Positions 1-9,867 of a stretch of 64,000 bases of DNA are shown piece by piece. A program made the position numbers and the translations under genes. The stretch comes from Streptomyces sp. cg36. Its GTDB lineage: Bacteria; Actinomycetota; Actinomycetes; Streptomycetales; Streptomycetaceae. The notes under the pieces were generated by a model. It was not told where the DNA came from and ran no database searches. It saw nothing but the letters and a program-made list of their open reading frames with translations. The stretch lies in contig NZ_CP163520.1 in the NCBI RefSeq assembly GCF_041080675.1, positions 1 to 64,000 on the forward strand, written 5' to 3'. How positions within the stretch are numbered: the first letter of the stretch is position 1; each line of letters starts with the position of its first letter.

Positions 1-9
1 CACGACGCG

Positions 10-144
10 CCGCCGCTACGCGGCGGAAATATGCTGCGCTCCGCGCAGCTAAATTCCGGCTCCGCCGGAATTCCTGCCAACTCCGTTGGCAGGGGCACGA
101 ATCGCTTCGCGATTCGGCCTGGCGGAATTCGCTCCGCGAATTCC
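10..144. repeat. Six tandem perfect hairpins, telomere-like
   Basis: Six perfect inverted repeats follow one another almost without spacers: 10-26 (7-bp stem), 33-49 (7), 52-72 (9), 73-93 (9), 98-116 (8) and 124-144 (9). Every loop is three bases. On the given strand the loops are tac, tcc, tcc, tcc, ttc and tcc, so on the bottom strand each is G-N-A, mostly within GCGNAGC. Streptomyces telomeres are known to consist of such palindromes, whose 3'-strand hairpins close with sheared G:A pairs. Here the G-N-A strand is the one that would end in a 3' overhang at a left end, so the polarity fits. The archetypal terminal CCCGCGGAGCGGG is not seen, so this may be a non-archetypal telomere, an internal copy, or a dispersed palindromic element. 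Confidence 0.75.
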
Positions 145-648
145 TCGGTCTGGCTACGGGGTTAGGGATGCTCTGCGCTTCGGCTTTCCGAAAGTTTTCT
201 TATACACCGTCATTTCTGTTTCTCTGGCACCGGGTTCACTTTACGGATTCCCGCACCCTGCATTGAAGAACATCGAACTCGCGCAAGAGAGCGAGTGAGG
301 CCAGGGTCTCCCGGTACTCCCTTCCGGGAGGTCTTGTGGGCCACGTGGAAGAAGACCAACTGAGTAACATCCCCGGCCACTCTTTTCCCCATCCGCTGCC
401 ATTCTCCCGGCCGCCGTCCACCGACACCCTCCCCCTGCGCCGCCCACCGGATGAGACCATCGCCAGTGGTGGGGGCTTGCCGCGCGGGCTCACCCTCCAC
501 GGCTCAGGTCTGAGGTCCCCGGCGGGTGCCGGTCATGGCACTTTCGTTCTGCTGCAAAGGCATGGCCGCCAGGGTGCCGAGGGGGCGATGGTGGAGTAAC
601 CGTCCGGGCGGCAGGGGGCCCGGAAGCCGACTACGGGAGGAATACATC
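145..648. other. Intergenic, no supported gene
   Basis: About 500 bases between the hairpins and the first small gene. Reading frames here are short and unlike known families; those that start inside the hairpins are a by-product of the palindromes. I see no convincing gene, tRNA or terminator. Confidence 0.4.
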
Positions 649-870
649 ATGCCTGAGATGACCGGCGGAGCCGTGAAGGCCATCGTCCTGGCAGCAGCCA
701 TATCCGTACTGCCCGGCGTCCACGCCCACGCCCAGAGCCCCCAACCGCCCACGGCTACCACCCAGGTCGGAGTCGTGACACCGGATGCCACGGCCATCGA
801 GTACGGGCTCACCGCTCTACCGCCGGCCCCGGCCACGCCCAACGCTGGCGGAAACTCCAACTGGCCCTAA
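649..870 (+). CDS. Small predicted secreted protein
   Basis: A 73-residue protein. I chose the ATG at 649 because a good ribosome-binding site (GGGAGG) lies about 8 bases upstream. Residues 1-29 look like a signal peptide: a short N-region with one Lys at 10, a hydrophobic core (AIVLAAAISVLPGV), and an Ala-X-Ala cleavage site ending AHA before Gln-Ser. The mature part is about 45 residues, rich in Pro, Thr and Ala, with no cysteine. No family is recognised. It could be a secreted or cell-surface peptide; the function is unknown. Confidence 0.6.
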   Translation: MPEMTGGAVKAIVLAAAISVLPGVHAHAQSPQPPTATTQVGVVTPDATAIEYGLTALPPAPATPNAGGNSNWP

Positions 871-1411
871 ACCGCCCCTCTTTCACGGGCCGATCTTGAT
901 CGGATACACCGGTCCGATGCGTGATCACTGACGTGCTAGCGGGACCGGACCGAGGCGCTGCAAGCGCCGATCCGGTCCGCGGGCGGCAGTGAGCCGGTCA
1001 CCGCCCCACCCGCGAGGCCATCGCATGGACCTACCGGCGCCAACTCGACGCGGCAAGACCCGCCCACCCGACGAAGGGGGGTCCGGGCGGCGTGCGCAGG
1101 AGTCCTGAACGGCGCGCGGCACATGGTTCTGGCCGACTTGGATGATCAGGGGCATCTCGCGGGCGACCGCTGGCGTCCTACCGGGCCAGGAGCGGGGGGC
1201 GGGGTGCCTGGCGGGGGTGGTGTAGGCACCGATGAGGGCGTCTTCGGTCTCGCGGACCGTGGGTTGCGTCAGCGGCGCACGGCCGGCTCGGTGCCCGGGA
1301 CGCGCCAGCCGCTTCCCTGATAGAGATCTTTGAATCTGGCTCTGGCCGCAGTTCCGGGAAGTAGAGGCCGGCCCCTGCCGCAGTCCGGTCGCTTGAGGAA
1401 GCGTGGCTGGG
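871..1411. other. Intergenic, no supported gene
   Basis: Several overlapping frames exist on both strands, but none has convincing codon use or a recognisable domain. Confidence 0.35.
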
Positions 1412-2092
1412 TTAGAACGCAACGGCCGACAGGTCGGTGGCGACCTCCACAGCCTGGTAGCCGTAGGTGTCCGCCGCGTCGACGCGCAGCATGAGACAGA
1501 ATCGGTCGAGGGACTGGATTTCCCTGACGAGGCGCTTGTAGTCGTGTTTGAGCAGGTGTACTGCCGCGCGGTTGGCGATCGCCGACTGTCCCATGATCAT
1601 GAGGACCGGCTGTGCGGACTGTCGTGGGGTGAACTTTGCGACCAGCGCATGGTCTGTTCGACCGTAGGTGTGGGGGAAGCACTCAGCACCGACGCTGAAG
1701 TCGCCACGTGGATTGACCTTCACACCGGGCAGGTGCCTGGCCAGGTACTCGACGTTGCGTCGGTTCGATCCCAGGCCACCGATGCTGAGTTCGGTGCGGT
1801 CCCCGTTCAGCTCCGGTGCGTCTGCGGCAACGAGAGAGAACGCGCACCCTGCCTCCTCCGCGAGCATGGCCAGTTCGATGATCGCGTAGACGTCACTGTG
1901 CTCGGTGACGGCGGGCATCTGCCAGTGGCTGTTCAGGATGATGACGCACGGTAGGCCGGGGCGCAGACCAAGCAGGGCCTGCTTCTGGTGCAGGGCGCGA
2001 GCGGTGCTGACACGCTTCCAGGCCCAGACGGATCCGCCGCTGACGACGCTCGTGATCAGCCCGATCACGACATTCAGCACTGCATCCGACAC
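1412..2092 (-). CDS. Hypothetical membrane-anchored protein
   Basis: A 226-residue protein from a GTG start. Residues about 5-25 form one hydrophobic segment, so it is probably anchored in the membrane with the rest soluble. The soluble part has alternating hydrophobic strands and helices suggesting an alpha/beta fold. Candidate conserved blocks are LSIGGLGSNRRN near residue 100, IMGQSAIANRAAVHLL near 165 and the C-terminal DTYGYQAVEVATDLSA. I believe similar proteins occur in Streptomyces, but I cannot attach a named family. It stands alone, followed by about 465 bases without a clear gene. Confidence 0.7.
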   Translation of the reverse strand: MSDAVLNVVIGLITSVVSGGSVWAWKRVSTARALHQKQALLGLRPGLPCVIILNSHWQMPAVTEHSDVYAIIELAMLAEEAGCAFSLVAADAPELNGDRTELSIGGLGSNRRNVEYLARHLPGVKVNPRGDFSVGAECFPHTYGRTDHALVAKFTPRQSAQPVLMIMGQSAIANRAAVHLLKHDYKRLVREIQSLDRFCLMLRVDAADTYGYQAVEVATDLSAVAF

Positions 2093-2557
2093 GGAGCCCC
2101 CGCCCTCGTCACCGCACCATGACCTGATGGCCGGTTGGCCAGCCTACTGATCGACGGTCTGTCACGCGTGATGATTCGGCGACTCACCACGCGTCGGCAA
2201 CTGCTTGTCCGGCGTCCACCGTCAGCTCCCGCGCCGAGAATCGGGCACCGGGATCCCCCGGACCGCCTCGACCGTCCCCTCGCGGAGCTCCGCCAGAGGC
2301 GGCGCACGACGCCATGACCGCATCGCAGATCCGGCACGCGTCCCGGTGAACTGGCCTTTCATGAAATCGCGGCCAGAACCAAAGCCCGGGTCCTCACCAC
2401 CCCGCCCGTCCGTTACTCAGGTCTCCCCCGGCCACCGGTCGGGAAGTCGAGTGGGAAGCGTCGGGTGAACCGTCCGCGGCTGGCTCCCTGTTGCCGTGGG
2501 TGAGCCGGGGCTTGTCCGGGAACGTGGTGGTGGGCGGGCCGATGACGGGGAGGGGTT
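2093..2557. other. Intergenic, no supported gene
   Basis: Space between two divergently transcribed membrane-protein genes. Promoters for both presumably lie here. I see no convincing small gene or RNA. Confidence 0.35.
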
Positions 2558-3148
2558 ATGGGGGCGGGCACGGTTGCGGTGCTGGTGGCCGGTATCGGGG
2601 TGCTGGGTACGCTGCTGGCGCCGTTGGCCACAGCGTGGGTGGGGGCGCGGTCGCGGTCGCAGGAGGCCGTATTGCGGCGGCTGGCCGATGACGACGTGCG
2701 GCGCCACGAGGCGGCGGCAGCCGACCTGGAGCGTCGGCGGGCGACCTACATCGCCCTCAACACCAGCGCCCGTCTGTGGCGGATACACCTGATGGAGGAC
2801 CTGAACCGCCACCCCCACCCAGGGGGGCCGTCCCCGCAGACGGAGGAGGCCCGGCTCTCCTTCCAGAACGACTTCGCGCAGGCACAGATGCTCGTCCCCG
2901 ACGGCGTCCTGGATGCCGCCAACCGCGTACGGGTCGCCCTGGCCGACGCCCACAAACAATTCAGGCAACTCGGCGACGCACCGGCCGCCGACGCCGCTGC
3001 CGCGGGTGAGGAGCTGCGGGCGTTCCTGCTGCACCTGTGGGACGACATCACCCAGATGCAGGCCATCATGCGCAAGGACCTCGGCGTCGGATCCGGCATC
3101 CCCGTCCCCTCGGAACGGCCGGAAGCGCACCCGCCCCCCAGAGCCTGA
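2558..3148 (+). CDS. Hypothetical protein, N-terminal TM plus coiled coil
   Basis: A 196-residue protein. The ATG at 2558 follows a purine-rich GGGGAGGGG site. Residues 2-28 are a single hydrophobic helix. Residues about 30-65 are rich in Arg, Glu and Ala in a heptad-like pattern (EAVLRRLADDDVRRHEAA), suggesting a coiled coil. The rest is helical and charged, ending in a Pro-rich tail. This layout (one TM anchor, cytoplasmic helical domain) is common among small uncharacterised actinobacterial membrane proteins. No enzymatic motif is visible. Confidence 0.65.
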   Translation: MGAGTVAVLVAGIGVLGTLLAPLATAWVGARSRSQEAVLRRLADDDVRRHEAAAADLERRRATYIALNTSARLWRIHLMEDLNRHPHPGGPSPQTEEARLSFQNDFAQAQMLVPDGVLDAANRVRVALADAHKQFRQLGDAPAADAAAAGEELRAFLLHLWDDITQMQAIMRKDLGVGSGIPVPSERPEAHPPPRA

Positions 3149-8195: not shown

Positions 8196-9293
8196 TCAGG
8201 CTCCGGCGCAGTTGGTGAAGGTCGCCTTGGTGCGGGCGCTGTAGATGCTTGCTCCGCCGTTGGCGTCGTACTTGAGGGGTACCGTGATGGTGTCGTCGGC
8301 GGTCCACGGGAAGCCCTGGGTGTCGAAGGTCCAGGTGCCGGTGGCCTTCGTCGCCAGCTCCGACAGCGTGACCCAGCCGTACTGGCGCGGGGGCACGCTC
8401 ACGGTGAGCTTGTTGCCCATTTCCTGCTTGAGGTCCACGGTGGTTGCGCCGTTGACCTCGGCGGTGACATCGAGTTTGAGGCCGATGAGGTCGCTGCCGA
8501 CGGTCAGGCTTCCGCCCAGTTTGAAGCCGATGGTGTTGGTCCACCCTGTGGAGGTGTTCAGCGAGAACTCCCACGGGATCGTGGTCGAGGTGTCGTTGAA
8601 CCAGATCGGGGAGACACACGTCTCCGGCAGGGTGAACGGCGGTGTCTGGGTGGTCGTGGACCACGAGCAGTTCGAGGTGTCCTTGGCGCACCTGGCGGCC
8701 GCGTAGTCCACGGCGGTGTTCCATGCCGTCTGGTAGACCTCAGCGGGCACTGTCCACTGCTGGTAGGGCGTGCTGTCGCAGCGGTAGGTGTATGCGAAGT
8801 TGTCGGTGTTGGGGGGGATCTGGACGGTCAGGCAGGAGTTGTCGCCGACCTGACGGAGCCTGAACGCCTTTTTTGCCGACCCGGAAATGGGCTGGAAGTA
8901 CCATTTCTCGGTCGCGCGCCCGTCACAGGGCTGTTGCCTCAGTTGGTAGCCAGTGGTGGTCAGGTCCATGCACTTGCCGGTGGTGGTGTTGACGATGGCG
9001 AACCCCGAGCCGAGGCTGGTGCCCGTGTTGATGCGCCACCCAGTGGCAGATCCCGGTGCCGGGTTGACGGAGATCGCAGCGTTGTCGTCGTAGCTGCCGC
9101 CCTGGACGTCCAGCAGCTTTCCGTTGCTGACGTTGGTGAACGTCAGCTGGATGAGCGCCGTGGCCGACGGGCCGCCCTCCTCGCGTGCGGCAGCGGGGGA
9201 CGTCATGGCCCCTAATGCTGCGCCGAATACCGCCGCGATGACGGTTGCTCTCCTCCAGAAGGCCCGTCTGTGTCTCGATGGTTCAGTTGTCAC
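8196..9293 (-). CDS. Secreted ricin-B-lectin protein with beta-rich C-terminal domain
   Basis: A 365-residue protein. I chose the GTG at 9293 because AAAGGA lies 8 bases upstream and the signal peptide follows at once: Arg-rich N-region, hydrophobic core, and AMTSPAAA cleavage site near residue 33. Residues about 40-180 form a ricin-type beta-trefoil with QxW-like motifs (EKWYFQP, QQWTVP). The C-terminal about 170 residues are beta-rich, with amphipathic alternating Ser/Thr runs and the paired blocks LGGSLTVGSDLIGLKLDVTA and KLTVSVPPRQYGWV. This resembles aerolysin/ETX-MTX2-like pore-forming folds, but that part is inference. It lies just downstream of the Rhs immunity candidate, on the same strand. 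Confidence 0.8.
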   Translation of the reverse strand: MTTEPSRHRRAFWRRATVIAAVFGAALGAMTSPAAAREEGGPSATALIQLTFTNVSNGKLLDVQGGSYDDNAAISVNPAPGSATGWRINTGTSLGSGFAIVNTTTGKCMDLTTTGYQLRQQPCDGRATEKWYFQPISGSAKKAFRLRQVGDNSCLTVQIPPNTDNFAYTYRCDSTPYQQWTVPAEVYQTAWNTAVDYAAARCAKDTSNCSWSTTTQTPPFTLPETCVSPIWFNDTSTTIPWEFSLNTSTGWTNTIGFKLGGSLTVGSDLIGLKLDVTAEVNGATTVDLKQEMGNKLTVSVPPRQYGWVTLSELATKATGTWTFDTQGFPWTADDTITVPLKYDANGGASIYSARTKATFTNCAGA

Positions 9294-9348
9294 CAGTGAG
9301 ATCCTTTCGTAGTGCGCATGCCAGAGGAATGACTGTTCATTCCTTGGA

Positions 9349-9867
9349 TCAGTAATCCGACTCGAACACCACGAAGTGTTCCTCGTCCGCATACGGTCTG
9401 AGGTAGCGCCAGTGCTCGCGCCTGAATGACGTCACGGGGAGCACCTGCAGGTTCAGGCCGCCTGACATGGCCAGGCGGAACCCGCCGAAGGGATCGGCTT
9501 GCGCGTGCTCGACCACCGGGTTGTCCCGCTCGATCCGTGCGCGGACCTCCTCGATGCGGTGGTCGAGGAGGTTCGCGTCCTGGCGGTCCCAGTCGAAGGG
9601 GTCGTCGCTGGAACTGGGGCGGTCGGCCGGGTAGTAGACGTCCTGGGAGCCCATCAGCACCGCGGTGTTGTCGCTGAGGCGGAAGGGACATTGCAGGTGC
9701 AGTGCGTGTTCGTGGACGATGCGGGTCGACCCGTCGGGTCCTGCGACGTGGCGTGGCTCGCCGAAGGAGAACCACGCCAGGTCAGAGGCCCTTCCCACGT
9801 CGCGCAACGGCGATCCCACGAGCCGGTGCAGGGCAGTGAGGACAGCGTCCTGGGTCATCTCGCTCAT
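9349..9867 (-). CDS. Probable immunity protein for the Rhs toxin
   Basis: A 172-residue acidic protein. I chose the ATG at 9867 because GAGGACGGA precedes it. It starts 41 bases after the stop of the large Rhs gene, the normal place of an immunity gene in polymorphic toxin loci. The sequence shows an N-terminal helix with TQDAVLTALHRLVGSPLRD, a beta-rich middle (HALHLQCPFRLSD, TAVLMGSQDVYYPAD) and an acidic C-terminus (DEEHFVVFESDY). No catalytic motif or signal peptide is seen, consistent with a cytoplasmic inhibitor. No named immunity family is recognised; the role is inferred from position. Confidence 0.65.
   Translation of the reverse strand: MSEMTQDAVLTALHRLVGSPLRDVGRASDLAWFSFGEPRHVAGPDGSTRIVHEHALHLQCPFRLSDNTAVLMGSQDVYYPADRPSSSDDPFDWDRQDANLLDHRIEEVRARIERDNPVVEHAQADPFGGFRLAMSGGLNLQVLPVTSFRREHWRYLRPYADEEHFVVFESDY

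Follow-up and report, generated by a model that had tools for sequence, protein, structure and literature searches.

The first 167 or so bases of the window, by which we mean the whole analyzed stretch of 64,000 nucleotides from Streptomyces sp. cg36, are very probably the telomere at the left end of a linear Streptomyces chromosome. This telomere is of the published Sg2247 class, with a protein pair encoded on contig C2 as its likely partners. We judge it to be a telomere by its position and its sequence. Judging by co-occurrence, the two-gene operon at C2:82981-85150 probably encodes the proteins that patch this end, and no other pair is as likely. What is new here is the association of the C2-type operon with this telomere class.

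Six hairpins at the left end of the chromosome

A first-pass annotation, made from the letters of the window alone, had described six perfect hairpins with three-base loops standing end to end at bases 10-144, with all loops reading GNA on the strand that ends 3′ at the left. The coordinates were exact, and the wording is nearly literal, as the spacers between hairpins measure 0 to 7 nt. The stems are 7, 7, 9, 9, 8 and 9 bp long, and the loops of the bottom strand, whose 3′ end lies at the left, read GTA, GGA, GGA, GGA, GAA and GGA from left to right. Such hairpins numbered 0.09 on average and three at most when bases 1-170 were shuffled 5000 times with dinucleotides preserved. Across the window (1277 tiles of 170 nt, step 50) more than two were found in the first two tiles only, which held six and four. 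Folded with DNA parameters, the bottom strand formed each of the six at -58.8 kcal/mol (z -7.3), and 0 of 200 shuffles folded as low. Rfam returned two matches for bases 1-3000, at chance level only, and nothing in the phage collection matched the same bases. The features of this end are as follows.

1..167, no strand: probable left telomere of contig C1, Sg2247 class (position, genome-wide and plasmid matches; genome G128 begins with the same bases)
1..9, no strand: conserved core CACGACGCG, 5′ of the GTA-loop hairpin in relatives (alignment and end comparison)
10..26, minus strand: hairpin, 7-bp stem, loop GTA on the 3′-ending strand (1 of 7 pairs changed on both sides; 100% of cells paired, 13 telomeres)
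33..49, minus strand: hairpin, 7-bp stem, loop GGA (4 of 7 pairs changed on both sides)
52..72, minus strand: hairpin, 9-bp stem, loop GGA (out of register among relatives in the alignment; outside the pair count)
73..93, minus strand: hairpin, 9-bp stem, loop GGA (6 of 9 pairs changed on both sides)
98..116, minus strand: hairpin, 8-bp stem, loop GAA (3 of 8 pairs changed on both sides)
124..144, minus strand: hairpin, 9-bp stem, loop GGA (0 of 9 pairs changed on both sides; 90.6% of cells paired)

Thirteen ends were aligned, the internal C2 copy described below among them. Both sides had changed in 14 of the 40 pairs of five hairpins, a count reached by 0 of 500 shuffles; the hairpin at 52-72 was left out because the alignment is out of register there. 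Paired cells made up 94.2% of the total, whereas slid versions gave 27 to 40%. Of five measures, four were reached by 0 of 500 shuffles and the fifth by 3 of 500. The thirteen aligned ends show compensatory changes. Further into the window, the minus strand of bases 8199-9392 holds a 398-aa frame with ricin-type beta-trefoil lectin domains, a carbohydrate-binding fold.

Copies in the genome and the outermost bases

Base 1 of the window is the first base of contig C1 (8,595,631 bp). When the whole genome (9,022,416 bases in three contigs) was searched with bases 1-400, five matches were obtained. Four of them lie at contig termini, one being the start of the window. An inverted copy stands at the right end of C1 (90% over 1-154), a copy of 79% over 2-160 at the left end of C2 (366 kb), and an inverted match to the 26-nt core only at the right end of C2. 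The sole non-terminal match, at C2:3099-3257, lies 3.1 kb inside the left end of C2 in the same orientation (82%); we speculate that it may be a former end that has since received a newer one. The inverted copy on C1 spans only about 154 bp, so the terminal inverted repeat, as detected here, hardly extends beyond the telomere itself. The assembly end at position 1 and the inverted copy at the other end of the replicon, both raised in the first-pass annotation, were thus found, and the similarity to the plasmid pSCAT described below joins them in favoring its reading of a streptomycete-type telomere.

Several ends reach further out than the window, those at the right of C1 and of C2 by 7 nt and those of pSCAT and G051 by 21 nt. 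The ends of G051, G128 and pSCAT begin GCGCGCGGTCTGCTCCGCAGACACGACGCG, and all three have a terminal stem-loop at the 3′ extremity that the window misses by 21 nt. Because the ends of its relatives start further out, the assembly lacks about 21 outermost nucleotides, which are predicted to hold one more hairpin, GTCTGC-TCC-GCAGAC. Three records have extra DNA outside the telomere start (NZ_CP108296, 1-108; NZ_MZ502219, 1-26; NZ_CP061282, 1-61), which we take to resemble nanopore adapter. The plasmid record NZ_MZ502219 is labelled circular.

The telomere matches a published class

Bases 1-170 were compared by blastn with 72,556 plasmid records. Twenty-six matched, nine with a query coverage of 80% or more, and the best place was within 231 bases of a record end in 25 of the 26 and 2.5 kb inside in the remaining one. 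The end of pSCAT was matched at 75% identity over 85% of the query (E 2e-17). In the passages concerned, Algora-Gallardo et al. (2021, PMC8743542) name six telomere classes and keep Sg13350 separate from Sg2247. The latter comprises S. griseus 2247, S. rimosus ATCC 10970, S. albidoflavus J1074, pSCAT (number 5 on the list) and pSGZL, and its commonest loops are GGA, GAA and GTA. According to the same passages, genomes with Sg2247 ends yielded no Tap, Tpg, Tac or Tpc, and tap and tpg are reported in S. hygroscopicus strains with hybrid plasmids.

The window shares with the Sg2247 class its place at a replicon end, several hairpins within 150 nt, the GGA, GAA and GTA loops and the similarity to pSCAT; it differs in that the outermost hairpin is absent from its assembly. 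The genome also differs from the Sg2247 genomes as described in those passages of PMC8743542, in that it has Tap and Tpg, on another replicon. By its sequence, the window end appears to be a further member of this class. The first-pass annotation had offered two possibilities, that the replicon ends here or that it carries a new telomere type: the end at base 1 of C1 agrees with the former, and novelty of type was given up because the end matches pSCAT, a named Sg2247 member.

The absence of the classic terminal sequence, also remarked on in that annotation, was confirmed, as the archetypal telomere had 0 matches in this genome at E 1e-6; the query was 112 nt long, and it matched 71 other genomes. 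The archetypal Streptomyces telomere and the window have in common a hairpin array with 3-nt loops, and the candidate partner described below resembles the archetypal Tap-Tpg system in its Tap-like helix-turn-helix. The two systems differ in that their telomeres show no sequence match and that the candidate terminal protein has no detectable relation to the Tpg of contig C3.

A different telomere with Tap and Tpg on C3

Both ends of C3 (60,993 bp) carry a different telomere, with four-base CTTG loops, which was unmatched by window bases 1-400; 85 plasmid records match the C3 end. C3:5666-8335 encodes a full archetypal-type pair, in which Tap scores 1118 bits and Tpg 267.6 bits, each above its cut-off. 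In these ends and this pair, C3 resembles the CTTG-loop telomere with type I Tap-Tpg treated in the passages concerned of Tidjani et al. (2020, PMC7205883), a type that differs from the window in its four-base loops. The ends of G052 and G284 (1-260) are of another telomere type, whose arrays have four-base loops, GCCA and GTCA.

A candidate protein pair on C2

The operon on C2, the sole copy in the genome, encodes a Tap-like protein of 533 aa (82981-84582) and then a protein of 189 aa (84584-85150), the two genes lying one base apart. The annotations of three small plasmids with the window-type telomere each include a small "transcriptional regulator" of 189-190 aa (75-91% identical). In two of these plasmids it is preceded by a helix-turn-helix protein of 512-519 aa. 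The third, from NBC_00005, has the class ends and the small gene and no full-length Tap-like gene; just upstream of the small gene lies a short stand-alone relative of the Tap-like helix-turn-helix (L019 16361-16639).

The 533-aa protein matched the NCBIfam model telomere_Tap (NF047542) in its N-terminal part only (1.4e-20, 75.2 bits), which does not reach the cut-off of 600, and hhalign aligned it with the C3 Tap in the helix-turn-helix alone (96.8%). The rest of the protein matched nothing in Pfam or among PDB sequences, nor phi29 DNA polymerase. The 189-aa gene was not among the five places in the genome found with the Tpg model (NF047541, cut-off 90 bits) at E 1. Eight of 48 relatives of the small protein matched that model, all below the cut-off (best E 0.0015), and profile comparison of the 189-aa protein with the C3 Tpg gave a probability of 0.5%. 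Genes of the tap/tpg type, which the first-pass annotation had brought up, are present as the archetypal-type pair on C3, while the C2 pair, an alternative candidate, falls below the Tap and Tpg cut-offs.

The gene order was compared at 98 loci, 80 of which are the best 80 of 171 in named genomes. At 70 loci the small gene is preceded, at a distance of -8 to +151 nt, by the end of a Tap-like frame. Two of the other 28 have a match further away. At the remaining 26 the flank examined, shorter than 1 kb in three cases, contains no Tap-like frame; for these 26 the partner, if any, would lie elsewhere. A 545-aa neighbor of the small gene in NBC_00005 was considered as an alternative partner and rejected, as relatives of it were found at 0 of 23 loci without a Tap-like neighbor (the three loci with less than 1 kb of flank were left out). 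The Tap-like proteins have kept the motifs LD-x-N-G/A-AYLSAL, K-A/S-MYSKF and GTDELH. By eye, we take these to resemble motifs A, B and C of family-B polymerases. Polymerase identity found no support in Pfam, in PDB sequences or in the profile comparison with phi29 DNA polymerase, and so it is not claimed.

Association of protein and telomere in 392 genomes

A single set of 392 genomes from the genus was searched for the small protein, the telomere core, the archetypal Tpg and the archetypal telomere. The small protein was found in 151 genomes at E 1e-20, the 26-mer core (at most two mismatches) in 25, against 0 of 392 for a control pattern, Tpg in 293 at E 1e-15 and the archetypal telomere DNA in 71 at E 1e-6. 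All 25 genomes with the core carried the small protein, compared with 126 of the 367 others (Fisher p 1e-11, with kinship ignored), and at the stricter threshold of E 1e-60 the counts were 22 of 25 and 66 of 367. The archetypal Tpg was present in 8 of the 25 core genomes versus 285 of the other 367. It was missing at E 1e-15 from the remaining 17, all of which carry the C2-type protein. Tpg was detected in 74 of the 151 genomes with the small protein versus 219 of the 241 without it, and the small protein in 77 of the 99 genomes that lack the archetypal Tpg. Every one of the 71 genomes with the archetypal telomere had Tpg; eight had the small protein (two at the strict threshold). No genome among the 392 had both telomere types.

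In 126 genomes the small protein occurs with no detected core; draft assemblies and trimmed ends may account for some of these. G259 is an exception, with an exact core 1.8 kb inside a contig and a protein only 43% identical. G065 was considered as a candidate genome of S. griseus 13350 and rejected, its match standing 606 bp from the end. In G037, G293 and G088 a variant first hairpin occurs with a small protein of only 48-59% identity. Other hairpin variants, in G128 and G207, go with proteins of 70-72%, so the match between hairpin variant and protein is not strict.

Association in plasmids and parallel divergence

When plasmids were searched by tblastn with the small protein's relative from S. 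melanogenes, 154 records matched, of which 60 were listed. These 60 include 25 of the 26 records with the window telomere. The 26th, NZ_CP108493, has two partial matches to the small protein, and a full copy is found on NZ_CP108492 of the same strain. Among named members of the class the small protein is carried by pSCAT (71%) and pSGZL (46%); no copy of it was found in pSHJG1, a named hybrid member, or in the S. rimosus plasmid pPZG101, which has the class telomere. The divergent telomere of the pSGZL type was found in 35 plasmid records, 25 of which also encode the pSGZL-type protein (at least 60% identity); in the other ten it is not on the same replicon, and for NBC_00464 a sister plasmid has it. 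No record with the first telomere subtype stood among the matches of at least 60% to the second protein subtype, and none with the second (pSGZL-type) telomere among the 60 listed for the first protein. Plasmids with the archetypal telomere (60 listed of 99) gave no entry on the first protein list and two on the second, NZ_CP101398 and NZ_CP108532. At E 1e-5 Tpg was found in 0 of 8 plasmids with the window telomere, in a search in which no control matched, although the same model matched 293 of the 392 genomes.

Protein distance followed telomere distance over 16 replicons or genomes (Mantel r 0.639; 2 of 20,000 permutations as high). This set was hand-picked from ends showing the class; in our own genome and in G088 the protein lies on another replicon, and the NBC_01178 end, which lacks the anchor, was placed by its loop.

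Discussion

Tidjani et al. (2020, PMC7205883) already put forward the idea that a change of telomere type goes together with a change of protein system. The passages concerned describe GtpB-GtpA of S. griseus 13350, an atypical two-gene system whose GtpA is 18% identical to Tpg; they place homologues (about 50%) in 11 of 11 strains, including strains with CTTG ends, and make it the only system in the GGA-loop sub-clade III. For J1074, the passages concerned of the genome paper (PMC3937824) report no tpg; near the right end they describe a DNA-binding pseudogene that has a Tap-domain gene upstream of it, and they assume an unidentified Tpg-Tap pair. That gene and pseudogene resemble the C2 operon, and for S. 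albidoflavus a relative of 192 aa is listed (P0312). A 2024 study of 1034 actinomycete genomes (PMC11260486) treats terminal repeats, with no telomere classes in the passages concerned. In the open-licence PMC literature we found no paper naming the proteins of Sg2247 ends.

Before the proteins are considered, the array might be a dispersed palindromic repeat at a chance assembly break, as the first-pass annotation had allowed. Position 1 is indeed also an assembly edge, and one copy lies 3 kb inside C2. This reading can be practically dismissed: the genome of 9.02 Mb holds five matches rather than many scattered copies, four of them terminal on two contigs and inverted at the two ends of each, the internal one being the only such copy, and 25 of the 26 best plasmid matches lie at most 231 bases from a record end. 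Granted a telomere, the archetypal-type Tap and Tpg of C3 could patch it, with the C2 pair doing something else. Both C3 proteins exceed their NCBIfam cut-offs, and Tpg occurs in eight of the 25 core genomes; we nevertheless regard this as improbable, since C3 has its own CTTG-loop telomere, a kind tied to type I Tap-Tpg in the passages concerned of PMC7205883, the 17 core genomes without Tpg all have the C2-type protein, and none of the eight window-telomere plasmids yielded Tpg in the search that lacked a matching control.

It is likewise unlikely that the C2-type pair merely travels with the telomere on plasmids and does not act on it. Many carriers of the pair are plasmids, and the association figures come without an unrelated plasmid gene as control; against this, the pair is found in single-contig genomes too, Tpg is less frequent in genomes with the small protein than in those without it, and divergence of the protein follows that of the telomere. 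A different question is whether the C2 pair is itself the GtpB-GtpA system, a known system that would then be more widely distributed. We find this somewhat more likely than not, and it is compatible with the explanation we prefer. Both are two-gene systems with the large protein first (the S. griseus order being taken from the name in the passages of PMC7205883), GtpB-GtpA is the sole system in some strains with GGA-loop ends, and relatives of the small protein include proteins labelled S. griseus (P0325, P0350). The presence of GtpB-GtpA in strains with CTTG ends speaks against the identity, as does the naming of its host telomere class, Sg13350, apart from Sg2247 in the passages concerned of PMC8743542. 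Taken together, co-occurrence, the scarcity of archetypal Tpg and the parallel divergence make the C2 operon the leading candidate, and we infer that it serves the window telomere.

According to the general scheme in the literature, replication from the center would leave a 3′ overhang, which would fold into GNA-capped hairpins; a terminal protein and its associated Tap-type protein would then prime synthesis, with the terminal protein staying on the 5′ end. The putative players here would be the 533-aa Tap-like and the 189-aa terminal-protein-like proteins, borne on a plasmid and serving the chromosome.

More broadly, we lean towards the view that telomeres of the Sg2247 class are maintained by a terminal-protein operon of their own, which is predicted to hold for S. 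rimosus and S. albidoflavus as well. This operon would encode a terminal protein of 190 aa that shows no detectable kinship with Tpg, and a partner of 480-530 aa in which a Tap-type helix-turn-helix is joined to a domain that Pfam and PDB sequence searches do not recognize. Telomere and protein subtypes would diverge together, the archetypal Tpg would be largely replaced, and the chromosome studied here would rely on the copy on the 366-kb plasmid. The telomere alone is one more example of a published class, and the value of the finding lies in the protein pair. S. albidoflavus J1074 is a common laboratory expression host. In the passages concerned of the 2021 paper (PMC8743542) the end-patching proteins of Sg2247 ends were unknown, and the operon makes the question testable in J1074. 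Since the sole copy of the pair is on C2, the chromosome may depend on the plasmid. Loss of chromosome linearity on loss of pSCL4 is reported for S. clavuligerus, by the title of the paper (PMC8743545); if the chromosome here truly depends on the plasmid-borne pair, loss of the plasmid should cost it its linearity.
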